A DNA stretch of 64,000 nucleotides from Parietaria judaica. Its lineage: Eukaryota > Streptophyta > Magnoliopsida > Rosales > Urticaceae. Under the pieces are notes generated by a model. That model ran no database searches. It had not been told where the DNA came from and was given only the letters and a program-made list of their open reading frames with translations. The translations under genes were made by a program, and so were the position numbers. Shown here piece by piece: positions 18,407 through 56,902 of the stretch; the first letter of the stretch is position 1; every line of letters starts with the position of its first letter. The DNA lies in assembly GCA_954871525.1 (NCBI GenBank), contig OX940864.1:19214001-19278000 (forward strand), written 5' to 3'.

Positions 18407-20403
18407 ACTTAAAAGAAAAAAAAATTCAAGAAAAAAATATACCATTTGAGGAGACTACGAGATTTTTTTTTTCTTTTTTATTTGTATTTTTATTGATTTT
18501 TTGTTAAGTAGTAGATAGATGTTCGAAATCTTCCAAAACAAATCGGAATCCTAAAAGAGTCGGCATCCAAAAACCACAAAGTAAAAAAGTGATCAGGGAT
18601 TATCGAATTCTTCTTTTTGTAAAACTAGATTTGTAAAGGTTGTACTTTTTATATATTAAAAAAAAAAAACCACAGATTTATCCATAGTTGTATAAAGCAA
18701 TAAAATAACTTTGTGATGATATCTATTATACAATAGTCAAGTTCATGAGTTTATGTTTATGAGATATATGGCCTATATTATTTACATATTTAAACAAGTT
18801 TTGATCCTTAAATATGTAATTATTTTGTAATTTATTAATTGTCTATGAGTTTGAGTGAGGAAGAAATATGATCTAATCTATAATCTCAGCTTTTATATGT
18901 ATCAACTATCAAATAACAATCTACATCAGAACAACAGTAATTAGGGAGAATAATAATAAATAAATACCCTTTTTTCTTCAAATTTGCACGGTAATATCTA
19001 AGTCATGAAACGTTTTTTTATTATTTATTATTGATTCCGTCCCATGGTGTCTCCATTAATGTTGAGTTTTTTTTTTTTTTACATCTGTACAACTCAAGTA
19101 CTTACTACTCTTTTTTTCTTTCTTTCATGTTTTGATATTTATCATGCTAAATACTTCAATTTAAACATAAAACGTGTAAATGACTTACATTTAATGGAGA
19201 CATGAAAAAAAAAAAAAACCCATATTTCACAACCTTAGGTATTTAATCAGCACACAATTGAAATTTAAAAAAATGGATACTTTTGTGAAAATTATCCCTA
19301 ATAATAATGAGGGATATTTGCGGAAAAAAATACACCTATGCTACGACGAATAAGACATATTCCCAATCATTTTTTTGTGGCACGAATTCTCATGGTTTGG
19401 AAAAATTTTGGCGAACGTAATTAAGATTTTTCATTAACTCCTTTGCGTGAGTTTCATGTGGTAACATTTAATTTTCCCACGTTTTAGTTCTTTTTTACCA
19501 CGCCGCGGCATGACTGATCTATAGTGTTTAATTTTTGCAATGTATAACCCGTTTTGGTTATTATGCGAAAACATAGTGTTCAAAAAAATTATAGCTCAAA
19601 TGCGGTAAAATTAAAAAGCGAAAACATACACGGATCATATGTTGCTGCATGGACTTCACAGTAGGAAGCTAACAAGAAAAACTTACTTAAAGAAAAAATA
19701 TAAAATTAAGTTATTTCATATTTTTGTAGCATATAGATCTTTTGCCGCAAATTCTTAATAATAATGTCAAATTGACATGAATATATCATTCCCAAATCCC
19801 AATAACGAAACTTATCATCAAAGTTTATGCCTCACTATTGTATATAAATATATATATGCAGATACTTTATCATTTTATCAGATTTACAAAAGAAAACAAA
19901 TGTATTATTACATATATGTACATATACAAGTTCACACAAGAGAACAAATGAGTTATTACATTCCCAACCCGACAATAGTTGGCCACAATTGGGACAACAA
20001 AACCTCTCGTATAACTTCTTTCATTAGACGCGGAGAAAATATATTTTTTAAATAAGGTGAAATTGTTGATCAAACTTGCAATATATTATCGTATTATTAG
20101 ATATTTTCAATGTAATAATATGTGATATTATTGGTCAAATTTATATATAAAAAAGGAGCACGCATTTACATTCTATAGGGTTTGAACAAAGACGAAGCCA
20201 CATGCAACTCAGATGGGGCTAGAGCTGCACCTGGTTTTTATTGATAAAAAAAAAACTATAGTTGTGAGCGCGAGAAAATAGGAGATAGTGCCACAAATTT
20301 AATCATCATTAAAAAAAAACACTAATGTAAAAGTGGGAGAGTTACATACCGAGTCAAAAAGTATTTCCGATAATCTTCGAATAGTGGAGAAAATCTATAG
20401 TTA

Positions 20404-20406
<3 letters not shown>
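18407..20406. other. Intergenic, AT-rich
   Basis: Two kilobases between IRX9 and the first MULE. Homopolymer A/T runs, TATATA tracts and no open frame that resembles a protein. The downstream part of the IRX9 3' untranslated region is presumably in the first few hundred bases, but no clear polyadenylation signal could be singled out. Confidence 0.4.

Positions 20407-20447
<41 letters not shown>
20407..20447. repeat. (TA)n microsatellite at left edge of the 3.8-kb MULE
   Basis: About 40 bp of pure TA dinucleotide lies just outside the left terminal inverted repeat. Similar runs occur at the right edge (24,224-24,317) and beyond the next element (26,370-26,398). Confidence 0.9.
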
Positions 20448-20453
<6 letters not shown>

Positions 20454-20739
20454 GTGGAAACTTCAATTTGTGTGCCTGGTTGAACATGTATTTTCGGAAA
20501 AGTATCCCATTTTGTTAAATTACAAATATATGCCCCAAATCAGATTTTGCCTAACCTGAGTTAACTTAACCCAACCAAAAAAAAAAAGAAAAAAATAAAT
20601 CAATTTCGATTTTTGACAAAATAGTGTTCGAAGTACTCTCCCTCGCGAAGAACCACAACGGCCAGGAAAAGGTTCTCAACGGGTCCGACCTCCCCATTTC
20701 TCCCCCCGCCCTCAGCCACCATCTCGAAGAGTCCTTCCC

Positions 20740-20830
20740 CTCAGCCTCTCTCTCGCTCTCAGTCGCCCTCAGCCACCATCTCGAAGAGTCCTTCCCCTCA
20801 GCCTCTCTCTCGCTCTCAGTCGCCCTCAGT
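20740..20830 (+). repeat. 57-bp tandem duplication in the MULE leader
   Basis: CTCAGCCACCATCTCGAAGA plus following CTTCCCCTCAGCCTCTCTCTCGC is present twice in a row (from about 20,710 and 20,767). It lies in the transcribed leader ahead of the DUF1985 frame; part of the same sequence is present inverted at 24,025-24,050. Confidence 0.7.
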
Positions 20831-21205
20831 CGGGAGGAGGAAGAAGGCTTCGATTTAGGGTTCGAAGCTCCTCACGCTCTCTCCTCTGTGCGTTCACCCC
20901 CCGCTGACCTCCCTGCCTTCAACGACTCCGACCTCCGCGCTGCCATCTTCTCACTTTAAGGTTCAATCTTCACCGATTTTTCTTACTCGCTAGTTACTAG
21001 GTTTGAGGTTTTGGGAACTTCGATTAGGGCTTGAGGTTTGAGGTTGTCTTTGGCGCGGTTTTGCTTCAAACATATTATACAGGTTTAGGTTTTGGGATTA
21101 CAGGTTTAGGTTTTGGGCATTTTGGATGTTGGGTTTTGCGCACACAATATGTTTGATGATATTCCTTAATTAGGGCTTGATTAGAGATGAAATTTTATTG
21201 CAGGG

Positions 21206-22911
21206 ATGGCATACATTTTTCCGGAAAATTTATGGAGATTAGCCCAAGTGTGGTGCCCGTCTTCAAAAAGAACGGTGGAAATTGTCGACGCCTTGGTGGC
21301 AAATGATGCTATGAACCATGACGTTGAACGACGTTTCAGTTACTTGTTCCACACGTTTGACCCCCCGGCCCCTGGTGGTTTGATCCATCAAATCATGCTA
21401 CGCCGAGTTCCGGGCTATGGAGCCTCGGAAGAGCTATGGTTTAATTTTGGCGGCGTGATAAGAAAGTTCGGGCTCCGTGAGTTTTGTTCCGTAACCGGTC
21501 TTGCCTACGAAACGGAGTTTAGAGCCGAACCTAGGATACCTGTGAAAGGTGTGTCTAAGCTTGAAACTAGGACGTGGAACCAATTGTTTTCAGATTTTTT
21601 GACGGAAGACCTTTCCCCCTCTCTTAGATTCCTGCTCGGATTGTTTCTACTGATGGAGGGGGTGTTACTTGGCATGGATGGCCAAAGAACTTACCCGCCA
21701 ACATCGTATATTATTCGCCATCTAGAGGATTATTCGGCCAAACCTTGGGGTAACATAGGGTGGAACCAACTTTTGTCTTTTGTTCGAAACTTCGACTGGA
21801 GCAAGAAAGTAAAGAAAATGCAAAAATTGGGCAATACCGTATATCCGAATTACACTTTCCACGCATATCACCGTCCACTATTGCATTGGGCGCTTAGTAT
21901 ATTTTCGGATATCAACAATTTCAAGACGGCGAAATCATTCTTCAAGTCTCGCAATGTACGTTACTTTGTTCCCATTTTCTTGGTTGTTTATTTTGATTCG
22001 TTTTTAATTGCTAAATTTTTTCATAAATTATTTTGTTTGTAGATCCAAGTACTTGAGTTTACGGTCAAGGAAGTTGAGAAGTACAACTACGAAGAAGGAG
22101 ATAACCCACAGGAAGCAGACGGTCCGAAACAACCCGAGCACCACGAAGGTCCCGTTCCCAATTTGAAGGACCAGCTCGATGAACAAGCAAAGAAGATCGG
22201 TGAACAAGCCAAGAAGATCGATGAACAAGCAAAGAAACTCGTAGAAATGGTACAATTTGAACAATTTTTATATAGTTTTTAATCAGTTTTTAAACAGTTT
22301 TTATAAACAGACTTTACATTGTTACGTGCAGGAAAACATTCTACTAGAGGTTCGTGAGACTGTTCGATCGTTGATTTCTGGCCAAGTCAAGACTGAAAAA
22401 CCACAACAAACTTGCATCAATTTGGGCAGGCCGATTGGTGTGACTCGGAAGAGGGATTCCAGTGAATGTGAAGTTCCCGAAGAAGATCTGCCATCCCGGA
22501 AAAAGGCCACTCCACTTGCAAAGAGCCTGTAACCATTGTTTACGGCGATGGATGACGTATTGCCTACCCAAATACCGGGTTTTGACCTCGGTATCTGTTC
22601 CATTTTCCCGGCCAAGAGGGAGAGAAAGCCGAGCAAAATGTTGGAGGGTTACACAAACCCCGATACAGAGGAGCTAAAACAGCGCACAACGGTCGGTGTG
22701 GCAGTACCGAAAGTCGCGAAGGGGAAGGCAAAGGCGAAGAAGGATGGACGGGTTGAAATCGACAAAGCGGATCCGCGTTGGTGCAATTTTGACAAATGGA
22801 TGAAGGCTAGGCCGAACAAGAATAATAAGGAAGTGATGCTACTTACAAACATCCGAGTTGCCCGTAAATGGTTTCAAGAGTTGCTTTCACCTCTTTCGTG
22901 GCTAGATACAA
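21206..22911 (+). pseudogene. DUF1985-containing MULE protein, interrupted and lacking its Ulp1 protease part
   Basis: Exon 1 (21,206-21,955) encodes MAYIFPENLWRLAQVW and a DUF1985-like region (HDVERRFSYLFHTFDPP, MLRRVPG, WFNFGGVIRKFGLREFCSVTGL, LFLLMEGVLLG). Exon 2 (22,043-22,249) ends in a tandem coiled-coil unit DEQAKKI-GEQAKKI-DEQAKKL. Exon 3 starts at 22,332 and hits an in-frame TAA at 22,530, then stays open in the same frame through PGFDLGICSIFPAKRERKPSK and ARKWFQELLSPLSWLDTM to about 22,911, where homology breaks. In plant elements of this class a C48 (Ulp1-like) cysteine protease normally follows that point. The stop and the missing protease mark a broken gene, unless an undetected intron removes the stop. 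The host role of these proteins is not established. Confidence 0.8.
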
Positions 22912-23475
22912 TGGTACGATTTGACTTGCTTTCACTTGGGGTGCATGTTGCCGACTTTGAGACATCCAATCCCTCCATACTTGTAGGCAATTCGAGGTTA
23001 ACATCGTCCACATCTAAATCCACGGCATGGTTTTCTTCTTCTACCAAACTCTCAAGGCGGTCGGCGGATTGTGGAATCTTGATATTAGCACTCCCACGGG
23101 AACTACCAACAAGTGGACTCTCCAATTTTTTATCAACTTCACAAAACATCGTCGGCAAGATATCAATGCTTTTAGTACCGTGTTTCACATACAATATACC
23201 GTTGCTTAAGTGGACCGTCTTCATTATTGTGCACTTCGAACTCAATGTGACCGGTGGAGCTCCAACAATTTCGGATGCTAATTCAAACTTCAAATCGAAG
23301 ACCGTTGGATCAATCCAAAGTTCCTTGTTGTACAACAAATCGCAAAACTCTTCGTAAGTTATATTCTCGTTTGCGGGAAAACAATGCCCTTTACCCCCAC
23401 GGTACACCCAAGAGGACCCGTCTACAACCCACTCACCACCGTATTGCAAGTAAATATTCATTGCTACAAATAACA
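22912..23475 (-). pseudogene. N-terminal fragment of a MuDR-type transposase
   Basis: Read on the minus strand, the frame contains MNIYLQYGGEWVVDGSSWVY, then RGGKGHCFPANENITYEEF, LLYNKELWIDPTVFDLKFEL and an acidic stretch (DLDVDDVNLELP). This is the conserved amino-terminal region of plant MuDR transposases (start probably at the Met of MNIYLQ, just after a TTGTAG splice acceptor). Neither the DDE catalytic domain nor the SWIM zinc finger follows: the frame runs into the tail of the oppositely oriented DUF1985 gene near 22,911. It is therefore a remnant left by an internal deletion. Confidence 0.8.
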
Positions 23476-24222
23476 AATACAAGCATAATCAGATTCCGTG
23501 GGATTTTGTGTGAATTAACCCAAATTTTCTAATAGAGGCATATTCACAAACAGTTTGTGTGCATTCAAAGTAGACAATTTTGTAACAAAAAATTGCTACA
23601 AACATTGTTTCCTACCAACAATTCGACAGCATATTGCAAACCAGAACGATTATCCGGGAATAGGACGACGTTAAAAGATCGTTATTTTGTAAACCTAAAT
23701 CGGAAAAAAACACGAGATCACACCTTGGTTTCCGAAATTGCCAAAGGAGGCGAGTAGGAAGCTGGCCGTGGGTCGGAGGCGAGGCCGGAGCGCGGACCTG
23801 TGACGAACGAACAAGGGAGCTGGGTTTCACCTCCACTTTCCGAAGGCACAGACGGAGGTGAGGGCTTGACGCAGGAGGTTCACCTGGGTTTCCGGTGAGC
23901 AGAAACGAAGCCACAGACGGAGGCGATTTTGGCCTGAAACGAAGGCAGAGGGAAAAGGGGAGGGAGAAGGTGCTTCATCGCCAAGATTTTGCCCGAAATC
24001 TTTTTATTTTTTTCTTTTCTTCGAGATGGTGGCTGAGGGCGGGGGCGAAATGGGGAGGTCTTTCTTGTTTTTGAAATTGATTTATTTTTTTCTTTTTTTT
24101 GGTTGGGTTAAGTTAACTCAGGTTAGGGCAAAATCTGATTTGGGGCATATATTTGTAATTTAACAAAATAGGGTACTTTTCCGAAAATACATGTTCAACC
24201 GGGCACACAAATTGAAGTTTCG

Positions 24223-24317: not shown

Positions 24318-24321
<4 letters not shown>

Positions 24322-24614
24322 TAATGACGGCGAAAATACTCAAATTTTGGTCAAAGAACCCCTCGTGTATCCAAAGTCGAAAAGTGGTGGTAAAAGTACC
24401 CAAAGTACATTTTGGGGCGTTGGCCAGTTTTTTCCGTGCCGTCCATGCGGCCATTAGCCTCTTTCCACGTGGCACGCCACGTGGTCGTTGACTGCCACGT
24501 CATCAAAACTTTGGGTATTTATATCGTGATAAACCAAAGTTTGGGTATTTATGCCGTGATAAACCATTTTTTATATTTTTTTCGGTTGCCGACATCATCT
24601 AAATAAGGTTAAAA

Positions 24615-25185
24615 TCAAGATTCTAAATATCGATATCGTTTTGCACTCTCCAATTTATGGATATATCGCTTGCCGACGGTCATGCCGATGGATAAATCCG
24701 AAGAAAAAGATATATCGCTTGCCGAGAATATCGCATAATTTCGCGGATATATCGCATGCCGATCAAAATATCGACGGATATTTCTGAAAATATTTTTAGT
24801 ATCTCAATCATATTTTTATATAGTTTCTAAATTACCAATTTAATAAATATGACACATAGTTATAGCCTAAAAAACACTCATAAATCATAATATAACACAA
24901 ACATATAACATAAAAGTCATACCTCGTAACATAATATCGACATAACATAAAATAAGCTAGGCATTGTAATAAAGTCATAGAGTACAAACATATATATGAA
25001 GCACGATTTTAAATGCCGATATCGATGTCGTTTCGCACTCTCTATTTTACGGATATATCGACACTTGCCGACAGATAAATGTGAATAAATGGATATATCG
25101 ATTTTCTACGAATATCATATCGCACTTCTCATTTGCTGGGCATGTCGTGGATATATCGAGGACATATCTGGATATTTACAACCAT
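24615..25185. mobile_element. 571-bp nested insertion with 8-bp TSD
   Basis: Flanked by identical GGTTAAAA at 24,607-24,614 and 25,186-25,193; the opposite arm of the foldback element carries a single AACC-TTAA site at this point, showing the pre-insertion state. The insert contains two diverged inward copies of a GATATATCG-rich block (near 24,640-24,780 and 25,010-25,165). Its ends (CTAAATATCGATAT and, reversed, GTAAATATCCAGATAT) are weakly inverted. The 8-bp TSD suggests a hAT-type MITE. Confidence 0.75.
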
Positions 25186-25200
25186 GGTTAAAATATTATA

Positions 25201-25271
25201 GCTTTTGTAGGACTCGAACCCATCACGTTCCCCCTCATAAAAAGATAACATAACCACTAAACCACATTCAC
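25201..25271 (-). other. tRNA-like segment in left foldback arm
   Basis: The minus strand reads GTGGTTTAGTGGTTATG (A-box-like) and 35-40 bp later GGGTTCGAGTCC (a near-perfect Pol III B box). No cloverleaf could be completed, so it is a tRNA-derived relic and not a functional tRNA gene. The mirrored, more diverged copy is at 25,977-26,045 on the plus strand. Confidence 0.55.
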
Positions 25272-25976
25272 TTCACGTTATATCTTGACAAAAATAAGAA
25301 TATAAATAGAAACTTTTTGATAAGTGACATAGAAATAGAAACATATTTATTTTTCGCACCAGGTTCGGGTTAACTTATTTGGAACGGGGGTGAGTTGACT
25401 TTTTTGAACCGGGGTCGAGTTGACTTTTTATAGAATAGGGTCGGGTTGAATTTTTGGACAGTGGTCAAGTTGAATTTTTCGTACCGGATTCATGTTGACT
25501 TTGTCGGTACGGGTTCGTGTTGATTTTTTCATAACCGGGTGGAGTTAACTTTTTGAAACGAGGTCGAGTTGACTTTTTTTGGAACGGGGCCAGTTGGACT
25601 TTTTATTATTAAGTGGCAACCCGATCCTAAAAATTCAACTCATAAAAAAATTCGATTCGACCCCATATCAATAAAGTCAACTTGACCCGATTCCTAAAAG
25701 TCAACCCGAACCTGTACCAAAAAAGTCAACCTGAATCCGGTAAAAAAAAAAATTCAACCCGACCAAAGTTTGAAAAAGTCAACATGGATCTAAAAAAGTC
25801 AACCTGACCCCGTTCCAAAAAACTCAACTTGATCCTGGTCCGAAAAGGTCAAACTAACCCCGTTCCTAATAAGTCAACCCGAACCCGGTGCGAAAAAACA
25901 TATGTTTCTATTACTATGTCACTTATTAATAAGTTTCTATTTATATTCTTATTTTTGTCAAGATATAACGTGAGGT

Positions 25977-26045
25977 GAATGTGTTTTAGTGGTTATGTTG
26001 CTCTTATATGTGAGAGGAGTTGATGGGTTTGAGTCCTACCAAAGC
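25977..26045 (+). other. tRNA-like segment in right foldback arm
   Basis: GTGTTTTAGTGGTTATG followed by GGGTTTGAGTCC, the mirror image of 25,201-25,271; the B box here carries a C-to-T change (GGTTTGAGTCC). Confidence 0.5.
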
Positions 26046-26367
26046 CATAATGTTTTAACCTTTATTTAGATGATGTCAGCAACCCAAATTTTTTTATTTA
26101 TTTTTAAATAGTTTATCACGGCATAAATACCCAAACTTTGGTTTATCACGGCATAAATACCCAAACTTTGGATGACATGGCAGTCAACGACCACGTGCGT
26201 GCCATGTGGAAAGAGGCTAACGGCCACGTGGACTCACCGTTAGTGGATGGACGGGAAAAACTAGTCAACGCCCCAAAACGTACATTGGGTAATTTTGCCA
26301 CCACTTTTCGACTTTGGGTACACGAGGAGGTCTTTGACCAAAGTTTAAGTATTTTTGCCGTCATTAA

Positions 26368-38924: not shown

Positions 38925-41877
38925 ATGGGAGGGAAAGGAAATTGGTTTTCGAATGTGAAGAAAGCTCTCAGCCCCGACTCCAAGGAGAAGAGAGACGAGG
39001 TTTTTCGAAAACGAAAACAGAGATCAATTCTCACTTGATCCATTATTTTCTAATTCTGGTATATGACTGTAATTGTTCTAAATTGTGAAAATTGCAATGA
39101 TTCAGAGGCCGGGGAAGTCGAAGAAGAAATGGTTCGGGAAGCAGAAGCACCCGAATCCGTACGCTCTGTCAGAAGCCGCCACATCACCGCCTCGGCCTCT
39201 GGAGGCGGAGGCAAGAGTGGCTAACGTAGAGGTCGAGCAGCGCAGCTATGAGCCTCTGGTCGCAGTTGCCGCCGCTCCGCCCCCAGAGCCGCCAGCGGCT
39301 GCTGTGGCTCCGCCACCTGCCCCGGAGGTTAATGTCGTCCAAACCCGTAGAGTTTCTCGGTTTGTCGGTGAATCGGGGGAAGAACTGGCGGCCATCAAGA
39401 TTCAAACGGCGTTCCGAGGATACTTGGTAAGGACAATATTTGTTGTACTAAAGATTCCGGATTCAGGAGAAATTTGTTCGGGTTTATTGTTATTAATGGA
39501 AATTTCACGTGTTTGAATACTGCCCTAGCTAATCCCAAATAGGAAAGTATTCGAAAACGCGCTCCGTGGATACTATAGATTACTCTTCCATAAAATCCTT
39601 TGTGTTTGTTGATCTTCTGTTTATTGCGTAATTATGAGTTTTAACATATCTGGGATAGATAGAGAAAGAAATTAAGATTCCGGGTTTATGGAGAAATTTA
39701 TTCCGGATATATTGTCATTGATGGAAATTTCACGTGTTTGACTAGCTAGTCGTAAATAAGAAAGTAATTGAAAAGCGATATTAAGATTACGAGTTTAGTG
39801 AAAAAACAATGTAATTCGTTACATTGTAATAAATAGAAATTTCACTTGCTTTAACATTCACACAGGAAAAGGTTATTTTTGTAATTATTCAAAAAAAAAA
39901 AATCAGGCAAGAAGAGCATTACGAGCGTTGAGAGGGCTGGTGAGGCTGAAGCAACTGATGGAAGGATCGGTTGTGAAGCGGCAAGCAGCGAGTACTCTGA
40001 AGTGCATGCAGACTCTCGCCCGTGTGCAGTCTCAGATCCGTTCGAGAAGAGTCCGGATGTTGGAGGAGAATCAAGCTCTCCAGAGGCAGATCCTCCAGAA
40101 ACATGCTAAAGATCTCGACGGATTCCGGGTTTGTTAATCTATCTGTCTATCTATTATTGTTTCAGAAAGTCAAAATTTGGTGAAAAATCCGTGTTTCCGT
40201 TTTATGATTCGATCTGGTATTGTACCTTTTTTTTGAGAGGGTGCTATTTTTGGAATAAAGTCTTGAAAATGTGAAGAAAAAAAAATCTCTAGGGCAGTAG
40301 GGTTTGCTCCCTCTCTATTTCCGGCGCCGTCGGAACTGTTTCGGATTTCAGAATTGAAATTGCATTGGGTCTTTACTCTCTATCATGGTGATGAAAAATT
40401 TATATAAATATAGTTCTGTTGTACTCTTAGGATCCGATCGTACCATTCGAGAGACACTATATTCGCAAATAAAAATTTTTAAAACAGTAAAAAGATGGTG
40501 ATAAGGTTTCCTTGCATGAGTATCAGTATTGGAACTGTATTGGATTTTACAACTGTTTTTTAGACCAAAAAAAATGTTTATCAAGGTGGTGAAAAATCCA
40601 TATCCTTTATTGTCTGTTGCCGTTTTATGTTTCGATCCGGTATTGTACCTTTTCAAGAAGCTGCTATTTTTGGAAGTCTAGTCTTCGAGAAGCGAAAAAT
40701 AGCAAAAATAGCGGGTTGGTTCTCTTAGCGAATTATTTTGGAGATTCCAAATTGGGTTCAGATGAAACCGCCAAAGTGGTGAAAACCCCATATCTAATGT
40801 AGTTCCGTCGCCGTTTTATGATTCGAACGGGTATTATAATGTTTTGACGATGTTATTTTTTGAAACAAACTCTTCGAAACCGTGGTTTAACTTTCTCTGG
40901 GAAATGTAACAGCTTGGAGAGGAATGGGACGATAGCTTGCAATCCAAGGAACAACTCGAGGCGAGCCTGCTCAGCAAGTACGAGGCGTCTGTTAGGAGAG
41001 AGAGAGCGTTGGCTTATGCATTCTCTCACCAGGTATTTTCACCGAACTAAGCAATTTTAAGAAGATTAAGATACAGGAAACAGAAAAAAGATAAGAAATA
41101 AAAATTGAATAGCGGATAATAAACTCCGAATATCGATTCTGAAAAACTTCAGCTTTACAATAGGCACATAATAGTAATAAAGTTTGAAGTATTAGAATCT
41201 TATGTATGTAACTATATTTATAGCAAACCCTGAAGAATCCTTCGAAATCCACGAGCCCGATGTTCATGGACCCGCGAAACCCCACCTGGGGCTGGAGCTG
41301 GCTCGAGCGGTGGATGGCCGCCCGCCCGTGGGAGACTCGCCCTGCCGGCCCCGACTCCGACGCTGCCTCCGTCCGCAGCCGTTCCATCTCCGGCGGAGAG
41401 ATCAACAAGTCCTACGCCCGCTTCCTCCTCAACTCCGACACCGTCTCCTCTCCCACCGCCGCGGTCGCCGCTGCCCAGTCTCCGGCTACTCCGGCTCCCA
41501 AGCCGACTCCCCCGACGCCGACCAAACGGGTGAAGTCAGCGAGCCCAAGGGTGAGGGCTCTGGCAGAGGACGACGCAAGAAGCATGGCGAGCGCCCAGTC
41601 GGAGCGCCCAAGGCGGCACAGCATCGGCTCGGCAATCAGGGATGACGAGAGCCTCGCCAGCTCGCCGTCGCTGCCAAGCTACATGGTCGCGACCGAGTCG
41701 GCCCGGGCCAAGCTGAGGAACGGGTCGACGCCACCGGAGAAGGAGCCAGCGAAGAAGCGATTGTCATACCCGCCCTCTCCAGCCTCCAAGCCGCGGCGGC
41801 TCTCCGGTGGGCCCAAGGCGGACACGGCCTCGGTAACGTCCATGGCGACCGAGAGCAACAGCATCACCGTGGGATGA
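38925..41877 (+). CDS. IQ67-domain calmodulin-binding protein, IQD2/IQD3 type
   Basis: Five exons: 38,925-38,999, 39,106-39,426, 39,907-40,128, 40,913-41,032 and 41,224-41,877, all with GT-AG introns in phase 0, giving 463 residues (IQD2 of Arabidopsis is about 461 by recall). MGGKGNWFSNVKKALSPDSK is the family start; an in-frame ATG 36 bp upstream exists but is less typical. Pro/Ala-rich linker, then the IQ67 domain split by an intron in the normal place: AAIKIQTAFRGYL|ARRALRALRG and VKRQAASTLKCMQTLARVQ. Further on are RERALAYAFSHQ, NPTWGWSWLERWMAARPWE, and a Ser/Pro-rich basic C terminus with the DUF4005-like part (PSYMVATESARAKLRNGS). IQD proteins bind calmodulin and microtubules and act as scaffolds in cell-shape control; specific partners cannot be inferred. 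Confidence 0.94.
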
Positions 41878-43055: not shown

Positions 43056-43310
43056 TTTAAGTAGAATATATTTTTTCAAATTTATTATTTAGAATGTGTG
43101 TTGTAGTCTGAAATATTTATATATACATAAGACTTTTGTTGTTTTAAGTACTAAATTAACTCTTTAACTTGATAGTTTTATTATAGGGCTTATTAGCAAA
43201 AGCCTCAATAAAATTCAAACTATTTAAAAAAGTACTCAAAGTTTCAATAATCCAAATTATACTCATTTTAAACTTTGTTTTCCCTAATTACCCTCAAATC
43301 ACTTTTCTCC

Positions 43311-43520
43311 CTCTTCTCCCTCTTCTCCTCCCTCGAGCTTTGCCCTAGCTTTCCTTCTCTCTCTCGCGATTCCTCGAGCTCTCTTCTCCCTCTTCTCCTC
43401 CCTCGAGCTTTGCCCTAGCTTTCCTTCTCTCTCTCGCGATTCCTCGAGCTCTCTTCTCCCTCTTCTCCTCCCTCGAGCTTTGCCCTAGCTTTCCTTCTCT
43501 CTCTCGCGATTCCTCGAGCT
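43311..43520 (+). repeat. Three perfect 70-bp tandem copies in the MULE leader
   Basis: A CT-rich 70-bp unit (contains CTCCCTCGAGCTTTGCCCTA and TCTCGCGATTCCTCGAGCT) occurs three times without differences that I can see. It lies just inside the left inverted repeat, in the presumed leader or promoter of the plus-strand gene. Perfect identity implies recent expansion or homogenisation. Confidence 0.9.
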
Positions 43521-44435
43521 CTGCGTTTCCTGTCTCGCGATTCCTCCTTCTGCCTTGTCTCCAAATCGCGAGCTTCTTCTTCCTCGACCTCTCCTCGAGC
43601 CCTAACTCTGCAAATCGCGACCTCCTTCACTAGAAACGGTTCGAGCCCTAACCCACGAGCTCTCCTCTCCTCTGATTCCGAGCTTCTCTCATCGTCCTTG
43701 AATCGCCAGTCGACGCTCCGACATTCTCATCTCCGTTGAATCTCAAAGGTAATAAACATCTTTCATTACATAATGTACAATATATTGTGATTGATATAAT
43801 ATCATCTCCTTTTTTGAGGTAGTAAATCTTTGAAATGAAAAGTACAATGTGGGTGATGCTGAACCGTTGTGAAGATCCTATTTATCCGTGTGATTTCTTG
43901 GAACAAGCTGACTTTCTCATTACTGGGTGAAAATGTCAGATTTTATTTTTTGAATATTGGGCTGGTTTCGTGTTTGGTCCGGTTTTCGTTTCTTAATTTT
44001 ATTTTGAAATACCATAATTTTTTGGTTCTGTCCGGTTCTCGTCTCATATATATAATCAAATCTCCATTTTTGAGCTCATTTCAAGCTGTATTTCTGTTAG
44101 GTTTGGAATTCATGTTCCCTTTTACATGAATGTAACTGGCATATTGCTATTAATCACATTATTTCAAATTCAATAACTGAACTCAAAGAAACAGAGGATT
44201 AATTGATTCATTGTATCTACATGAAGTTTATGTAGTTTACCTAAATGCTCTTAATCTTTCATATGATCAATTTTATCATTATGAACCAAATTATCTTGTG
44301 AACAATCTGTAAAAAGTTACTACAGTTTCAAAGCCAAATTTTATGTGAATACGCTCTATAGATTAAGGATTTTTGTTTGCAAATTGTGCCCTAACCTAAG
44401 ACTTGATCAATTATTGTGCAAAGTACAGTGTAAAG

Positions 44436-46341
44436 ATGGTAGAAATCAAGGCAACAAGTGCAGCGCTAGAAACCGGGGCAACAATTGCGGCTCAGCCGCA
44501 GGCAGCGGCCACATATTCATGCAAAATTGTGGAGCGCAAGCGCAAATCGGAAGGTAATTATATCCCTTTATAATTTGTTTCTTATTTGGTAAACTGTTCA
44601 CATTATTCAATGTATGTTTGTCAATATAATTCGGTTCATTATCTTACTTATTATGTTTCATTTAATTTCTTTTAGGTAGGAAATCAACATGTGGCGATTC
44701 CGAGAAGGCTTCCTCCTCTAAACCGATGTCTGAATCCAAAGATGCATCAAACGAGAAAGCTGAAATAAAAGTAAGACCAATTACATTGTATAACTCAGAT
44801 ATAATTATAAATGTTATTACAGTTACGTAAATAGAATTATATAAATGTAACTTAATGTTACATGATTGTAACTACAACTGCCTTTATGTAATTCTAGTTA
44901 CATAACTGTAACTACAATAACAGTACAGTAACAATATATTTACAGTTACAATCATGTAACTATAGTTACAGTTACAATTATGTAACTGAAGTTACAATTA
45001 TGTAACAGTTACAGCTACGTGTTCTGTCGGAATATTGTTCTGAGAGACAACTTCCTCAAAAACCTAGTTCTTCACCACAAGCTCCTCAACAAGACTCATC
45101 TTTAACGATCGATCAGCTACGCCAAGAAGTAGCAGAGCTTAAACAAGATAACAAAGAGATGAAGGCTGAGCAAGTTAGCTTGAAGAATGAAGTTGTTATC
45201 TTGAAAAACCAAGTGGAGATGCTAATGTCTCACATTGGTTTGAACAAGGTACTGATTGTAATGTAATTTACAACTTATTTATGTAATTGTAATTTAGCAT
45301 CACTTAAGTAATTGTAACCCCAGTTACAATACTGTAACCCCAGTTACAATACTGTAACCCCAGGTTACATTAGTGTAACCCCAGTTACATTACTGTAACC
45401 CCAGTTACATTACCGTAACTCTGGTCCAGTTACATTATTGTAACTCCGATAAAACTTATTGTAAATATGTTCATGTAACTACCACCATTTGTATTTTGTA
45501 GGCCGAGGGAGAAAAGGTTACCGAGCATGTAGCCAGGCAGCCAAAGAAGGATCCAATTAAGAGATCAAAGAGTGCTCGTACAAAGACTACGAGAGTGTCC
45601 TCTGAGCCTCTAACTACACCGGATTTGGCAGAGGTACTATTTGTAATCCATTTATCACTATATTCGTTATATAGCTCCACTTATGTAATTTAAACTTAAT
45701 GCAACTATGACTATGCACCAAGCCGGTAAGTTACTTAATTGTAACTCCAAATACAAATAAACAATTCAGTTATAGCTATTAAGTTATTACCATTTATATT
45801 TGTAGGATGGTGAGATTCCTCCCCTACCGAAAAAGAAGAAGATTGCCGAGAAGGCACCTGTTGAGGACACCACAGAAGACGCAAAGAAAGTTACATCTGC
45901 GTATCTGGATGACGAGACACTCCTTCAAATCGACAGTGATTCCAAATTCCTTGATGCTGTTATAACAAGGGCTACGAAGGTACTTGTCATCTTATATTGT
46001 AATCATATTTAGTTTAATCATATTTAGTTTAATATTTTCTTTGTAATTACATTTTTAGGTGGACAAAAATCTTGTTGACAAAGCCATTGAGCGTCCTAGT
46101 TTCAGCTTAGGCATTACCCAGATGCTTGAAAAGGTAACATTTGTGATCAATTTTAATTTCTGGTTGTAGTTTTTGTTACACAAGTGTAACTTGAATTACG
46201 TATATTTAATTCCATTTACTTTATGTCAATTAAGTAACTTACATACCTCTATATTTGTAGGAAGAAGCTGAGAAGGTTGAAACATCTATGAAGACATTTA
46301 AAAGAAAAGTTACAAGGGCTTCGAAGAAAGCAAATGTGTGA
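44436..46341 (+). CDS. MULE-encoded basic coiled-coil protein (seven exons)
   Basis: Exons 44,436-44,553, 44,676-44,770, 45,015-45,248, 45,502-45,633, 45,806-45,979, 46,059-46,133 and 46,261-46,341 join in consistent phase to about 302 residues without a stop. Start MVEIKATSAALETGA is the first plausible ATG; a further upstream exon is possible. Residues ~20-45 include ERKRKSEGRKS; exon 3 is a clear coiled coil (IDQLRQEVAELKQDNKEMKA, VVILKNQVEMLMSHI); exons 4, 5 and 7 are Lys-rich with a candidate nuclear signal PKKKKI; exon 6 has RPSFSLGITQ. That last motif recalls PGFDLGI in the DUF1985 gene at 22.6 kb and similar words in Ulp1/DUF1985-type MULE proteins. No enzyme domain is visible. Each intron holds GTAAC/GTTAC motifs. 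A DNA-binding or anti-silencing role is only a hypothesis. Confidence 0.75.
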
Positions 46342-46399
46342 TTTAGTTTTAGTCATTATCATTTTCGAACATATGGTCTGTGACCAATTTGTCTTATTT

Positions 46400-49300
46400 A
46401 TTTTTTCTTCCTTTTAAACTCTTATGACTATTACCTTTACTTATCGGATTACATGTGTTTAATCAGAATTAATGTTACATAGTTAATTAATGTTTACCTT
46501 TACTTTCAGTTACATAAATATAACTTATGTAACAACTAGAATTTAAATTGTGTAGTTACATAAGTTACACTTTTGTAACTTATGTAACTTCAGTTACGAA
46601 AATGTAACTTTGGTTACCATATTGTAACTTTGGTTACGATAATGTAACTTCGGTTACAAAAATTTAAAATAAATTAAATTAGTGTACCTTCAGTTACGAT
46701 AATGTAACTTTGGTTACCATAATTTAACTTTGGTTACGATAATGTAACTTTGGTTACAAAAATTTAATTCCAATTAAATTAGAGTAACTTCAGTTACGAT
46801 AATGTAACTGTGATTACCATAATGTAACTTTGGTTACGGAAATGTAACTTCGGTTACAAAAATTTAAAATAAATTAAATTAGTGTAACTTCAGTTACGAT
46901 AATGTAACTTTGTGTAACTTCAGTTACGATAATGTAACTTTGTTTACGATAATGTAAATTCGGTTACGAAAATTTAATTCCAATTAAATTAGTGTAACCA
47001 CATGTACATTAGTGTAACTATAATGATTGTGGTCATAGTATTACCTAATTGTGGTCATAGTATTACATAATTGTATGTCACTATTTTTTCACAATATTTC
47101 AATTTAAATTCTTTTTTGTAACTCAAATTATGTGAACTTATTGCTACGTACCTTTAGATGGAAACTGGATTAATATAATTATGTAACATAAGTGTAACCA
47201 TATATTACTAGAATTACGAAAGTGTAACACCTGTTACAAAAGCGTAACACCGGTTACAAAAATTATTTTAATACTTCCAAATTAAATCGAAAAGCACTAA
47301 ATTATTATATGAACAAATATATTGAAATTGTAACTCCGGTTACAAAAGTGTAACTACAGTTACAACAATGTAACTCCAGTTACAAACTGTAACCGGAGTT
47401 ACATAAATGTAACTTCAGTTACGATAATGTAACTTTGGTTACCATAATGTAACTTTGGTTACGATAATGTAACTTCGGTTACAAAAATTTAATTCCAATT
47501 AAATTAGTGTACCTTCAGTTACGGTAATGTAACTTTGGTTAACATAATGTAACTTCGGTTACAAAAATTTAATTCAAATTAAATTATTGTAACTTCAGTT
47601 ACGATACTGTAACTTTGGTTACCATATTGTAACTTTGGTTACGATAATGTAACTTCGGTTACAAAAATTTAAAATAAATTAAATTAGTGTACCTTCAGTT
47701 ACGCTAATGTAACTTTGGTTACCATAATGTAACTTTGGTTACGATAATGTAACTTCGGTTACAAAAATTTAAAATAAATTAAATTAGTGTAACTTCAGTT
47801 ACGATATTGTAACTTCAGTTACGATAATGTAACTTTGGTTACGATAATGTAAATTCGGTTACAAAAATTTAATTCCAATTAAATTAGTGTAACCACATGT
47901 ACATTAGTGTAACTATAATGATTGTGGTCATAGTATTACCTAATTGTGGTCATAGTATTACATAATTGTATGTCACTATTTTTTCACAATATTTCAATTT
48001 AAATTCTTTTTTGTAACTCAAATTATGTGAACTTATTGCTACGTACCTTTAGATGGAAACTGGATTAATATAATTATGTAACATAAGTGTAACCATATAT
48101 TACTAGAATTACGAAAGTGTAACACCTGTTACAAAAGCGTAACACCGGTTACAAAAATTATTTTAATACTTCCAAATTAAATCGAAAAGCACTAAATTAT
48201 TATATGAACAAATATATTGAAATTGTAACTCCGGTTACAAAAGTGTAACTACAGTTACAACAATATAACTCCAGTTACAAACTGTAACCGGAGTCAGTTA
48301 CGATAATGTAACTTTGGTTACCATAATGTAGCTTTGGTTAAAAATAGTGTAACTTCAGTTACGATAATGTAGCTTCAGTTACGATAATGTAACTTTGGTT
48401 ACCATGATGTAACTTTGGTTACGATAATGTAACTTTGGTTACCATAATGTAACTTTGGTTAGGATAATGTAACTTCGGTTACAAAAATTTAAATTAGTGT
48501 AACCACATGTACATTAGTGTAACTATAATGATTGTGGTCATAGTATTACCTAATTGTGGTCATAGTATTACATAATTGTATGTCACTATTTTTTCACAAT
48601 ATTTCAATTTAAATTTTTTTTTGTAACTCAAATTATGTGAACTTATTGCTACGTACCTTTAGATGGAAACTGGATTAATATAATTATGTAACATACGTGT
48701 AACCATATATTACTAGAATTACGAAAGTGTAATACCTGTTACAAAAGCGTAACACCGGTTACAAAAATTATTTTAATACTTCCAAATTAACTCGAAAAGC
48801 ACTAAATTATTATATGAACAAATATATTGAAATTGTAACTCCGGTTACAAAAGTGTAACTACAGTTACAACAATGTAACTACAGTTACCATAATGTAACT
48901 TTGGTTACGATAATGTAACTTCGGGTACAAAAATTTAATTCAAATTAAATTAATGTAACTTCAGTTACGATAATGTAACTTTGGTTACGATAATGTAACT
49001 TCGGTTACACTAATTTAATTCCAATTAAATTAGTGTAACTTCGGTTACGCTAATGTAACTTTGGTTAGGATAATGTAACTTAGGTTACAAAAAATTAAAA
49101 TAAATTAAATTAGTGTAACTTCAGTTACGATAATGTAACTTTGGTTACCATAATGTAACTTCGGTCACATAAAAATAATTCCAATTACAACAGAGTAACC
49201 ACATTTACATTAGTGAAATTCTAATTAGCATATATATCATAAATGTAAATATCTCATAAATGTAAAGTCAGTTACAATTATGTAACTTGTGTTATAGTGT
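46400..49300. repeat. GTAAC-N4-GTTAC palindrome array between the two MULE genes
   Basis: Nearly 3 kb composed of hairpin-capable words GTAACTTCAGTTAC, GTAACTTTGGTTAC and GTAACTTCGGTTAC separated by GATAAT or CATAAT (about 20 bp centre to centre) and by AAAAATTTAATTCCAATTAAATTA spacers. A longer unit containing GTGGTCATAGTATTACCTAA and GCTACGTACCTTTAGATGG recurs near 47,029, 47,922 and 48,532. Lower-density runs extend into the introns of both genes (44,815-45,010, 45,310-45,440, 50,910-51,410, 52,080-52,400). No open reading frame. Confidence 0.92.
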
Positions 49301-49348
49301 AAAGATATAATCACAGTAATGGCCTTCGAAAATGTTACAACGATTAAA

Positions 49349-52300
49349 TCATTTCGGAAACTTAAGGCAAGAGCGTTTGTTATGGCCTAATTTACCACAT
49401 GCTCCACAATGAAGTGACTTCTTGAATTCTTCACCGTTTGAAGGAATTCTTTTTTTTTTTCGGTCTTCCTGCTTGCCTCCTTACTTCGGGGGGTAAAGTG
49501 TCTGGAAAGAATGGGTCCTGAACACTTGAAGTGCTACATAAGCTATCCGAAAAAGCTTCGTAACCACTTGGATATATACCTCCTGCATAATAATACATAA
49601 AGTGTTAAATAAATCCTATGAAGAATATTTTAATCTAAATGTGCATTACCTCCTGCGTAAGTGGCTAAATAAGCCTCCCTAGTGTAAAATATTGACACAT
49701 AGGCTTTAGGATCACACCCAATCCTCCAAAATGAAGCCATAGCATGAGCACACGGAAAAGCGTCTATTTGCCAAACATTACACGTGCACGTCTCGCAGCT
49801 CAAGTTAACAACATACTGTGAGCCTTTATCAGTGACTTCATATTCGCTTTCATTTATAGAATCAACCTGCATATTGAAAAAATTACAAATATATTTTCAC
49901 ATTTAAAATGATTATACAGTCATTTGGCTAGGTGTAACTATAATTACATAACTGAAGATACTACTAGCTATTAGCGTAACAGGAGTTACGTAACCGTAAC
50001 TGAAGCTACGTAATCGTAACTAAAGTTACGCTAAAGTAACTGCAGGTATATATAATTAATGAATAAAAAAAGTAAAGAAAACACTTACGATTAATGTTCG
50101 TGCCAATTCTTCTTGGACATCCATCTTCAGCTCTGCTTGTGGGGTCAGCCTCATACGCATCAACGCTCCCTCTAGTCTATGTTTATTATACCAATTTTGA
50201 CAGAGCTTTCTGTAAGACTCGACCAATGAAATAATAGGTCGGTCTCTTGCTTCTCTCAAGACTGAATTAAGACATTCTGAGATGTTTGTTGTCATTATGC
50301 CGTAGCGTCTTTGAGTGCTATATAATTTTGCCCACTTTGTTGGATCGACGTCTTGCAAATACGGTTCAATTCGTGCATCGATCGTTGACAACTCCTTCAT
50401 ATAATGATCAAATTCTCTTTTCGTACATGCCAATGCGCACTTGGAGAAGAAAAAATCAATAGAAGAGTTCTTGAAATGGCTTAGAAGATTTCTGGATAAG
50501 TGCTGTTTACATACACCCTGAGTAGCTTCTGGATAAACCAACGTGATCGCTCTCGGAATTGAATCTTTGCGGTCAGATATGATGTATAAACCTTCGCGCT
50601 CTCCAATAGCAATCTTCAGTTGCTCAAAGAACCATAGCCAAGAATCATGATTCTCCGAATCCACTATTGAAAATGCGATAGGCAAGATGTGATTTTCGCC
50701 ATCTATCGCTGCTGCCATAAGGAGCGTACCTTTGTACTTGTTTTTCAGAAATGTTCCGTCGACAGATAGTATAGGCCTACAATGCTTCCATCCATTGATC
50801 GATTCCCCAAAACTAAGAAAGAAGTACTTGAATCGACCCTGGTTGTCAGAGCTAAACGCTGTATAGGTACCTGCACATTAAAATGTTAGTAAAAAATGTT
50901 AATAAGTTTTACACTGTAACTTCAGTTACTATTTGGTAATCGTAGTTACATAAAAGTAATTCTTTTTACATAATGGTAACTGCAGTTACCTTTATGTAAC
51001 TTATATTACAGCTAAGTAATACTGGTTACACATATTATATTTAATCATATTTGAAATCTTTGTAACCGAAGTTACATTATCGTAACTCAAGTTTCAAAAG
51101 TGTAATTACAGTTAAAATAGTGTAACTGCAGTTACACTATTGTAACTGTTACAATAGTGTAACTGCAGTTACATTAGTGTAACTTCAGTTACGATAATGT
51201 AACTCTGGTTACCATAATGTAACTTTGGTTACGATATTGTAACTTCGGTTGCAAAAATTTAATTCCAATTAAATTAGTGTAATTTCAGTTACGATAATGT
51301 AACTTTTGTTACCATAATGTAACTTTGGTTACGATAATGTAACTTACTTACTTAAGTTACACTATTATAACTGTAGTGTCAAGTTACACTTAGGTAATAA
51401 CTAGTAAAACAAAGTAAGTAATTTTACCAGGGTTTTTCGCTTTTAACGCTTCTGCATACTTAGGTAGCATTGCATACGAATCCTCCGCACTTCCTTGCAT
51501 GGATTCTAAAGTTAATTCCTTGGCCTTCCGTGCCGTATAATAGCTAATTTCTACTCCGTGTTCTTTTCGCATCTTCTTGATTATTTTCTTCGGAGCGATG
51601 GATTCAACTTCTTCTTCTTCACCAAATGCAGTTTTCAAGCATTCCTTTACAACGGAAGCGTTTGCATGCGGGTGCTTGGTACTGGTTACCGTCCTCACGC
51701 ATGAGTGTGTTTTATTGTATGATTTTATCCTCCATGTCGTTGAGCCATTGTAGTCCGTTGAACAATGCATTTTCCACGTACAACCGGCACTCGAACATTT
51801 GATTTCAAACCGACATGTATCAGAATTCGTAGTTGTAAATGAGAAGTTTCTTCTGATTGCAATCATGCACATAATGTTCTGAAGATGCCTCTTCGATTTG
51901 AACATGTTGCCCTTTTCCACGTCAAACAACTTTGGAAAATGCTCGACAGTTACGTCATCTATAAATACGTTGGATGAACTGCTATTTAGATCTTCACTGG
52001 TGAATTGCCCTGTAACAATAGTAATTTTAAAATTTATTATATAACTGCAATATTTGAAATAATGTAACTTCAGATACAAACGTGTAACTTCAGTTACTTA
52101 AGTGTAACTTTAGTTACACGTTGGTAACTGAAGTGTAACATAAGTGTAACCATATATTACTAGAATTACAAAAGTGTAACACCAGTTACACTTATGTAAC
52201 TTGAGTTACAAAAGTTACAACAGTGTAACACCAGTTACAAAGTGTAACACCGAAGTTACAAAGGTGTAACTTCAGTTACGATAATGTAACTTTGGTTACG

Positions 52301-52515
52301 ATAATGTAACTTCAGTTACACACGTGTAACCAAAGTTACATTTATGTGAAGTTACATAAACGTAACCTTGGTAACACGTTTGTAACTGTAGTTACAAGTA
52401 ACATTTATGTAACAAGTAGAATTTAAATTGTGTAGACAATAAGAGTTCTTAATATACCATGGTTGGCCAAATTTTTAGTGTGCGACGATCTTGATGATCC
52501 CTCGGAGGCCGACAT
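49349..52515 (-). CDS. mudrA-like MULE transposase, one homopolymer frameshift
   Basis: Exons on the minus strand: 52,515-52,458, 52,009-51,428, 50,870-50,089, 49,866-49,650 and 49,582-49,349. Start MSASEGSSRSS in the first is phase-compatible with the rest. Exon 2 has the MuDR DNA-binding region (CRFEIKCSSAGCTWKMHCS, THSC, KH-HANASVV). Exon 3 has the DDE domain: SVDGTFLKNKYKG, YIISDRKDSIPRAI and NISECLNSVLRE supply the candidate D, D and E. Exon 4 has the SWIM finger (CTCNVWQIDAFPCAH). Exon 5 reads EVRRQAGRPK, then an 11-A run shifts frame to a quick stop; with one A fewer the frame would run to a CCHC knuckle (CGACGKLGHNKRSC) and TGA at 49,349. Length would be about 623 residues. The transposase cuts and joins MULE ends in the nucleus. 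The shift may be real or a sequencing error. Confidence 0.85.
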
Positions 52516-53200
52516 TAATGAACCTACACAATATAAAGTGTAACACCGAAGTTACAAAGAGGTAACTTCAGTTACGATAATGAAACTTTGGTTACGCTAA
52601 TGTAACTGTAGTTACAAGTAACACTTATGTAACAACTAGAATTTAAACGGGTAAGATTGCATTACTTTGCCGGCTATGGAACTCTGATGCTGCACGATAG
52701 CCGTCCTGTACGTGTCAGTCCGCGCCTGATCCTGTATAGTGATGTTCAACCATGTTAGCAAACGATTATCAAACTGGTTTCCGACACTTGTATATCCGAT
52801 TCCGAGGGTAAACTATTATCAACCCCTACTGAAACAGGGACAGTTTGGCTAGTGGGAAACTGTAAACCGCCCCCGGATGTTACATTCTCATCGACATTAT
52901 CAACATGGGGAGAATTGTTAGTACTGTCCAACTGCTCTTGTTTACAGACTCTAAAACACAACAATTTAATTCGAAAACTCCTAATATCACTCAACCCAAA
53001 TTGGCGATTGAGAAACACTAAAGGACACATGATCAATGAATTGAGTTTTTACCTAGAGAAATCCTAAAAAAAGGGGTGAAGACAATCGATTAAAAAAAGA
53101 ACTCAGCGAAATTAAAACCGAACACAGAGATTCTACTTACGAGGGATGAGAAAATCAAATGAGAAAATCCAATCTCTGAACCAAATAGCATCGATCGAAA
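52516..53200 (-). other. Region upstream of mudrA, possible leader exons
   Basis: Two stretches look exon-like on the minus strand: about 52,675-52,735 (DQARTDTYRTAIVQHQSSIAG) and 52,790-52,950 (CKQEQLDSTNNSPHVDN, GLQFPTSQTVPVSVG). I could not join them in frame to the exon at 52,515, so they may be untranslated leader, a separate upstream frame, or decayed coding sequence. Confidence 0.35.
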
Positions 53201-53219
53201 CTTATAAATTTGACTGAAA

Positions 53220-53460
53220 ACAAAAACCAACCTGAAGGAATCGACTTCGATCGGAGAGAAGTGAGCTTCGAAGCCTTGGTGAAGAATAATCGAGCTGTTC
53301 GGTGAAGAAGAAGAATCGAGCTCACTGTTCAACGACGAAGAAGCAGGCTTCGAAGCCTTGGTGAAGAAGAATCGAGCTGTTCGGTGAAGAAGAAGAATCG
53401 AGCTCACTGTTCGACGACGAAGAAGCAGGCTTCGAAGGCTGTTCAACGATGAAGGATTCG
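53220..53460 (-). repeat. Tandem ~78-bp repeat in the right-end leader of the MULE
   Basis: The block TTCGAAGCCTTGGTGAAGAA followed by TCGAGCTGTTCGGTGAAG and AGAATCGAGCTCACTGTTC is present twice (from about 53,269 and 53,347), with a third partial copy. It mirrors in position the 70-bp triplication at the other end. Confidence 0.75.
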
Positions 53461-53587
53461 ATATATTAAGGGCATAATTGTCCAAATAACACCAAATGAG
53501 GGTTTATTTAATTATGGTAAACTTTTGAGGGTTTTTTAAAAAAGTTTCACCTAAATTGGGTATTTTGCTAAAAAGCCCTTTATTATA

Positions 53588-55385: not shown

Positions 55386-56195
55386 CTAGATGTGTTTCGT
55401 CCGCTCGTGGTGAACGGAATTGGCAGCAATGTGTAATGCAGCTTGGTTATCACAATATAACAAGGCTGGTCCCGAGCAAATGATGTGAAGATCCTTCAAA
55501 ATAGCAGTGAGCCAAGTGATCTCACAAACTGTATTGGCCATGCAACTATATTCTGCCTCTGCGGAAGAACGAGAAACTGGTTGTTGTTTCTTCGACTTCC
55601 AAGAGATCAGCGAAGAGCCTAAGAAAATGCAAAAACTGGAGATGGAACGCCGAGAATCAGGACATTGAGCCCAATCAGAATCTGCAAAGGCCTTGAGCTG
55701 CAAAAGAGGACTTCGATGAGAAGAATAAACCTTGACCAGGAGTCCGTTTAATATATTGCAGAATCCGATATGCGGATTGAAGATGTGAAGTTCGTGGAGC
55801 AGCGAGGAATTGACTGAGACGATTCACACACTAACTTGAATCCGGGCGTGTAATAGTGAGGTAGAGCAGTTTGCTGATCAGCGTGCGGTAGCTAGTAGCA
55901 TCATCTAGTATGTCACCCTCACATTGTGTCAGTTTAAGGTTTGGTATCATTGGGATATTAGCAGGCTTGCAACCCAAGTAACCACTATCGAAAAGTATCT
56001 CCAATGCATATTTTTGTTGAGAAATGAAGATGCCAGCAGCTGAACGTGCAACTTCTAACCCGAGAAAATAACGAAGAGGACCAATATCTTTAAGCTTAAA
56101 GTGATTGTGAAGGAAGGCTTTTAAGCTATCAACTGCAGCAGAATCATTACTAGCAATGACTATGTCATCGACATAAACAAGTAAAATTAGAAGTG
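55386..56195 (-). pseudogene. Copia reverse transcriptase C-terminus and RNase H remnant
   Basis: From about 56,290 leftward, minus-strand frames give [35 protein letters not shown] (the YVDD active site), [20 protein letters not shown] and, at 55,703-55,386, [34 protein letters not shown] and [11 protein letters not shown] of copia RNase H, ending HERTKHI. Frames shift and stops occur between the blocks, so the gene is dead. The end lies next to the polypurine tract and 3' LTR. Confidence 0.85.
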
Positions 56196-56319
56196 AAGTG
56201 ACATGGTAAAGAGAGAATTGTCGCTAGCAGACTGAGAAAAGCCGACAGAGAGGAGGGTGGAAGAGAATTTTTGGAACCACTGTCGGGAAGCTTTGTAAGG
56301 TGGAGATAGATTTTTATAG

Positions 56320-56700
56320 CTAAGGTAAGAAGAGATGGGATAAAGAACGGAAGTGAGATTGCACGAAGGAATAGAGAAGAGAATAGGCAATATCTTTGGA
56401 TACCAAGTTTAAAATCCAAGACGTTACCATGCTATTGCAGCGGGACGAGGTTCCTGCAAGAGGGTCTTCAGAGCCGGGCGGCAAAACTGAACCGTCCACA
56501 AGGCCGAGCTTGTGCTTGGCGTTGAGGGCCATCGTCATTGAGCGACTCCAGGTGTTGTAGTTCGGGCCAGTGAGGATGTGAGAGACGAGGACCATCCCGG
56601 GATGGTCTCCATTGTGAAGAAAGAATGGGTTGCTCGGATTATCCATGGTGGAGAGAGTAGGAGTTTCGATGTGAGAAGAAGGGGAAGAGCTCTGGGCCAT
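56320..56700 (-). pseudogene. Copia gag N-terminal remnant
   Basis: Minus-strand frame beginning MAQSSSPSSHIETPTLSTMD and containing NPFFLHNGDHPGMVLVSHIL, NYNTWSRSMTMALNAKHKLG and FVDG-like LVDGSVLPP: the copia-type gag N-terminal domain. It stops being gag near 56,330, where sequence jumps to the reverse-transcriptase region. The zinc knuckle, protease and integrase parts are absent. Confidence 0.85.
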
Positions 56701-56902
56701 GATTAGCCAAAAGAAGATCAGAGAGCAAAGGATGCTATTGCTCTGATACCATTTTACAATATAGAAGGGAGAAAATGACAAGGAAGAAGAAGCTCTTTTA
56801 TCATTCAAGTGCAGCGAGCTATTACAAAGAAATAAAACTAGTAAGCCCTAGCCACGTGAGACTAGTCACAAAATGTGAAAACTTATTTTATAGCTTGTAA
56901 TA

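Follow-up and report, generated by a model that had tools for sequence, protein, structure and literature searches.

The sequence examined here is a stretch of Parietaria judaica DNA of 64,000 nucleotides (contig OX940864.1, positions 19,214,001 to 19,278,000; hereafter the window), which contains a Mutator-like element (MULE) whose noncoding DNA is filled with the palindrome GTAAC-N4-GTTAC. The window holds 84 exact copies, compared with a mean of 0.05 and a largest count of 1 in 100 shuffles; all 84 lie inside the MULE and none overlaps a modelled exon. Besides its transposase the element encodes a basic coiled-coil protein of 302 residues. We suggest, by analogy with the VANC systems of Arabidopsis, that this MULE may carry its own sequence-specific recognition array, bound by its own protein, a reading to which we give a probability of roughly 0.45.

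Palindromic arrays in the noncoding DNA of the element

The two genes of the element converge on an array of about 3 kb, so that this large array is downstream of both. Coordinates refer to the window.

44436-46341, plus strand: second gene, 302 amino acids, seven-exon model with GT-AG introns; exons 44436-44553, 44676-44770, 45015-45248, 45502-45633, 45806-45979, 46059-46133 and 46261-46341
49349-52523, minus strand: mudrA-type transposase with DBD_Tnp_Mut, MULE and SWIM domains (Pfam); modelled exons 52523-52458, 52009-51428, 50870-50089, 49866-49653 and 49582-49349
44771-45014, unstranded: array in intron 2 of the small gene, 15 half-sites, 2 palindromes
45249-45501, unstranded: array in intron 3 of the small gene, 14 half-sites, 4 palindromes, spacer CCCA
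46342-49348, unstranded: intergenic array between the convergent genes, 152 half-sites, 54 palindromes
49867-50088, unstranded: transposase intron array, 8 half-sites, 2 palindromes
50871-51427, unstranded: transposase intron array, 31 half-sites, 10 palindromes
52010-52457, unstranded: transposase intron array, 33 half-sites, 10 palindromes
52524-52665, unstranded: array in a 5' intron (as modelled), 9 half-sites, 2 palindromes

Half-sites, defined as GTAAC or GTTAC, were counted in the twelve internal noncoding segments of the element. Nine segments have at least two each, together 268 in 5,172 bp (about 52 per kb), while the exons have six in 2,787 bp (about 2 per kb), all of them single and none forming a palindrome, and the flanks have 59 in 53,609 bp (about 1 per kb). 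The remaining three segments, namely the last intron of the transposase gene (70 bp) and, in the small gene, introns 1 (122 bp) and 5 (79 bp), have none. Palindromes are found in seven of the twelve segments, with 54 in the intergenic region and 30 across six introns. Given a noncoding share of about 0.66 in the central part of the element, an entirely noncoding set of 84 has a p of about 1e-15 assuming independent sites, a value that is only a rough guide because many of the palindromes are tandem copies and the sites are therefore not independent.

A preliminary description had reported the motifs as confined to introns, the intergenic region and the area upstream of mudrA, and had named equal frequency in exons as an observation that would speak against it. 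For the palindromes the confinement holds and no such exon frequency was seen, but single half-sites do occur in exons. Six introns contain palindromes while three short introns have no half-site at all, and the motifs reported upstream of mudrA are present but fall inside its 5' introns as modelled, the 5' exons of the transposase model being uncertain. Maize Spm sites are subterminal. Here the ends of the element are poor in half-sites (2 in the left 1,249 bp and 1 in the right 912 bp), and subterminal transposase sites were rejected as a candidate on that ground. Among the matches listed in a search of the open-licence literature, we found no description of a GTAAC-N4-GTTAC array in a MULE.

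Geometry and conservation of the lattice

Half-sites mostly alternate in orientation and are spaced 9 and 11 bp start to start. Convergent neighbours are 9 bp apart in 30 of 43 cases in introns and 54 of 60 in the intergenic region, divergent neighbours have a spacing of 11 bp in 36 of the 43 intron cases and 44 of the 60 intergenic ones, and many neighbours of the same orientation lie at 20 bp. Constraint was measured with the 64 plus-strand GTAAC sites in introns as anchors. The partner half-site positions carry 0.71-0.81 bits each (exact partner at 30 of 64 anchors), whereas the two central bases of the spacer carry 0.05 and 0.21 bits and the six-base spacer 0.16-0.48 bits; the 30 intron palindromes have 16 different N4 spacers. 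Comparison between introns thus shows better preservation of half-sites than of spacers.

With up to one change permitted in each arm, a scan found 44 slightly altered palindromes, of which 35 were changed in one arm and nine in both, with no complementary change among the nine. Since about 0.6 of nine would be complementary by chance, this zero is weak alone and the 35 one-sided changes weigh more. Because palindromes are damaged without complementary change, it is the sequence and not a hairpin shape that seems to be kept, which suggests that the DNA sequence itself, rather than its shape, is read. We regard it as highly improbable that the palindromes act as RNA, with hairpins formed in introns or in read-through transcripts serving as a source of small RNAs or as sites for a protein. 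All five array stretches folded do so far better than dinucleotide shuffles (z -4.5 to -15.3), as that explanation would have it, but strong folding is expected from alternating inverted repeats alone. A nucleosome-positioning signal was also rejected, since no segment showed a 10-bp periodicity of TA steps above that of its shuffles.

Part of the 84 palindromes is duplication. The arrays contain tandem repeats with periods of 20 bp and longer, and one block is present three times with only 4 differing columns in the first 376. Pieces of array are common to introns and the intergenic region (for example, 74.7% identity over 434 bp), and the arrays share descent through copying between these regions. 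One might then see only a neutral minisatellite whose palindromic unit of 20 bp has spread among the noncoding parts through slippage, unequal exchange and copying, with the exons spared because insertions there are harmful. The repeats, the triplicated block and the shared pieces all agree with this, as does the finding that half-site columns of the block are not steadier than others. Drift, however, should blur all positions alike, yet the intron half-sites and the 9/11 spacing are kept where the central spacers are near random, and the same word recurs in nine separate segments; we regard a purely neutral origin as improbable.

The element and its transposase

The following features delimit the element.

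43186-53578, unstranded: complete MULE, 10,393 bp, from its boundaries and target site duplication
43177-43185, unstranded: left target site duplication TTTATTATA, 9/9 identical to 53579-53587
53579-53587, unstranded: right target site duplication TTTATTATA, pair of 43177-43185
43186-43268, plus strand: left degenerate terminal inverted repeat
53494-53578, minus strand: right degenerate terminal inverted repeat

The perfect 9-bp target site duplication noted earlier is present on both sides, within the 8-11 bp range of MULEs, and of the limits first given (43196 and 53578) the right one stands while the true start is 43186. Of the 16 terminal bases of the inverted ends, 15 match, and the identity over 85 columns is 71.8%. 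The transposase has matches above the curated Pfam cut-offs to PF10551 (E 9.8e-22), PF03108 (E 9.7e-07) and the SWIM domain PF04434 (E 2.7e-07), and the element is a Mutator-like element. The transposase that had been proposed is thus confirmed by its DNA-binding, MULE and SWIM domains. The reading frame is not intact in this copy, shifting at a poly-A tract within the last exon of the model, upstream of the zinc knuckle, which is consequently out of frame. The VANDAL group of MULEs has absent or degenerate inverted ends, a 9-bp duplication, and SWIM and CCHC motifs in the transposase, according to an excerpt of PMC6446971. The present element has degenerate ends and a SWIM domain, with the knuckle piece out of frame and zf-CCHC_4 below its cut-off (E 0.027). 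No relatives of the transposase were found among the viral contigs searched.

The second gene and candidate binders of the palindrome

The second spliced gene was reproduced as described, with seven exons that are open throughout. The predicted protein is basic (pI 8.9) and has a coiled coil at about residues 101-148. It has no domain above the Pfam cut-offs, and its matches below them all lie in or around the coil, the bZIP match covering the zipper and not the basic region. Neither DUF1985 (PF09331) nor Ulp1 was matched in Pfam at E values up to 10, although the same run detected DUF1985 in a control open reading frame (ORF) at 21191-22042 (E 2.9e-08, 34.2 bits, cut-off 35.1). A search of solved structures gave no match below E 0.35, and Rfam gave 0 matches.

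This control ORF belongs to a second MULE-like element with inverted ends at 20400-24200, in which it lies just under the DUF1985 cut-off. That element also has a coil-like stretch and the word PGFDLGI, and contains none of the 84 palindromes. The order of coil, basic stretch and P-x-F-x-L-G-I is common to its protein and the 302-residue protein. According to the preliminary description, the protein has no more than an F-[SD]-L-G-I word in common with DUF1985/Ulp1-type MULE proteins; BLASTP against the DUF1985-like element of the window gave E = 0.35, and the FSLGI word was rejected as a sign of homology.

The absence of a recognisable DNA-binding domain from the coiled-coil protein, together with the presence of one (PF03108) in the transposase, fits a different and somewhat unlikely account, in which the lattice binds another protein, either a host factor or the element's own transposase, that drives the element's genes, the 302-residue protein being a helper, like mudrB or VANB, with a different role. 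MYB-type sites are similar to GTTAC. GT-3 trihelix proteins bind 5'-GTTAC-3', and GT-3a and GT-3b dimerise (excerpt of PMC4267404); some MULEs also carry additional genes whose function is unknown or different (excerpt of PMC6446971). A GT-3 trihelix host factor and the transposase are serious alternatives as binder. The arrays, however, are placed in introns and downstream of both genes, not at promoters, the terminal regions have few half-sites, and about 50 sites per kb are more than a host activator would need.

Comparison with known systems

In Arabidopsis, VANC21 binds its motif in the noncoding DNA of VANDAL21, with loss of DNA methylation, and VANC6 acts in a like manner on another motif, the targets growing as tandem repeats (PMC5735166). 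The noncoding regions of VANDALs are targeted by RNA-directed DNA methylation (excerpt of PMC10398659), and VANC structures are mentioned as unpublished in excerpts of PMC12859917 and PMC8756742.

In layout the element resembles a VANDAL/VANC pair. Like VANDAL21 (Hiun) of A. thaliana with its VANC21, it is a MULE with a second gene of its own, has a short motif that is sparse in exons and dense in introns, between the genes and on the upstream side of the transposase gene, and has arrays enlarged as tandem repeats (PMC5735166). As in a VANC target array, one short motif is dense in the element's own noncoding DNA and, in its palindromic form, absent from exons, and the arrays have arisen by tandem duplication. 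VANC proteins, on the other hand, carry DUF1985, and VANDAL21 has three genes (VANA, VANB and VANC). Since the 302-residue protein lacks DUF1985 and its putative motif occurs in both orientations, we have not classed it as a VANC. The VANDAL-like arrangement first proposed therefore stands for the noncoding motif, its high density, its tandem spread and the second gene, but not for DUF1985 or a single motif orientation.

The VANC21 motif, YAGTATTAY, occurs nine times in the window and seven times in the element. Six of these seven are in a doubled 22-bp unit, one per copy of the triplicated block:

47026-47074, 47921-47969 and 48531-48579: doubled 22-bp unit containing TAGTATTAC, an exact VANC21-type motif

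Its presence is thus likely due to chance, and it was rejected as a sign of kinship. VANDAL6, with VANC6, is similar in having another motif in tandem repeats of its noncoding regions (PMC5735166); that motif, AGTTGTCC or AGTTGTAC, has two matches in the window, both outside the element, where 3.1 were expected. Kaonashi-type MULEs (DUF1985/Ulp1) are likewise plant MULEs with an extra gene, but the 302-residue protein has neither domain and the common word is not significant. TnpA of maize Spm and MURA of MuDR are transposon-encoded and linked to methylation loss on their own elements; MURA, however, acts at the terminal inverted repeats (excerpt of PMC10398659), and the arrays here are internal.

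Surroundings and distribution of the motif

The MULE was inserted beside pieces of a host gene with IQ and DUF4005 domains (39082-41877). The window also contains a foldback-like element at 24320-26300, in which 25-bp repeats in one orientation are followed by similar repeats reversed, flanked by inverted 30-bp doublets, and remnants of a Copia-type retrotransposon at 55386-56847. No dense palindrome field was found in viral and prokaryotic collections, which hold no plant genomes and may not include the window itself. A two-palindrome lattice was found there at one viral and eight prokaryotic loci, each with only two palindromes; in rumen Clostridia contigs (L002, L003, L005-L007) the two GTAAC-N4-GTTAC palindromes are 20 bp apart. 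These pairs are probably paired bacterial operators.

A possible self-recognition system

The likeliest binder of the TGTAACTnnAGTTACA arrays, we infer, is the element's own 302-residue protein. A protein recognising GTTAC would bind the palindrome as a dimer, which would explain why the site is palindromic, and such dimers would line up along the DNA, which would explain a repeat of 20 bp, or about two helical turns. On the model of VANC21 and VANC6, the bound protein would remove or block silent chromatin across the element, and relief from silencing would allow expression of the transposase and of the 302-residue protein itself; the rest of the genome, without dense arrays, would be left alone. 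We favour recognition of the array by the element's own protein because the palindromes are all inside the element and outside its exons, because half-sites and the 9/11 lattice are kept while spacers have changed and no complementary change is seen, because an open coiled-coil gene sits in the same element, and because VANC21 and VANC6 show a like arrangement (PMC5735166).

Several observations weigh against this proposal. The VANC21 motif is non-palindromic and in a single orientation (PMC5735166), while the motif here is palindromic and mostly alternating. The 302-residue protein has neither a DNA-binding domain recognisable by Pfam nor the DUF1985 of VANC proteins. With its broken transposase frame, this copy may not be autonomous. 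The ratio of observed to expected CpG differs between segments (1.25 in the intergenic array, 0.27 in intron 2 and 0.31 in intron 3 of the small gene) and shows no clear mark of lost methylation. Half-site columns of the triplicated block varied in 6 of 80 cases, versus 8 of 320 for the other columns; four of the six sit where the third copy leaves the alignment, and the block is too young for a constraint test, although taken alone it counts against the proposal.

A bolder and unlikely form of the proposal is a second kind of transposon self-recognition, without DUF1985, in which a small coiled-coil dimer covers the noncoding DNA of the element by reading the lattice, with about one half-site for each turn of the helix, and relieves this element alone of silencing. 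The lattice leads to a sharp prediction, namely a dimer with 9/11-bp geometry. If true, the pair would offer a compact protein with a DNA tag as a means of directing chromatin state. In the papers considered, sequence-specific anti-silencing by transposons is described for Arabidopsis VANDALs, and a protein without DUF1985 that works with a palindromic lattice would reveal either the range over which VANC-type systems can change or more than one origin of such systems.

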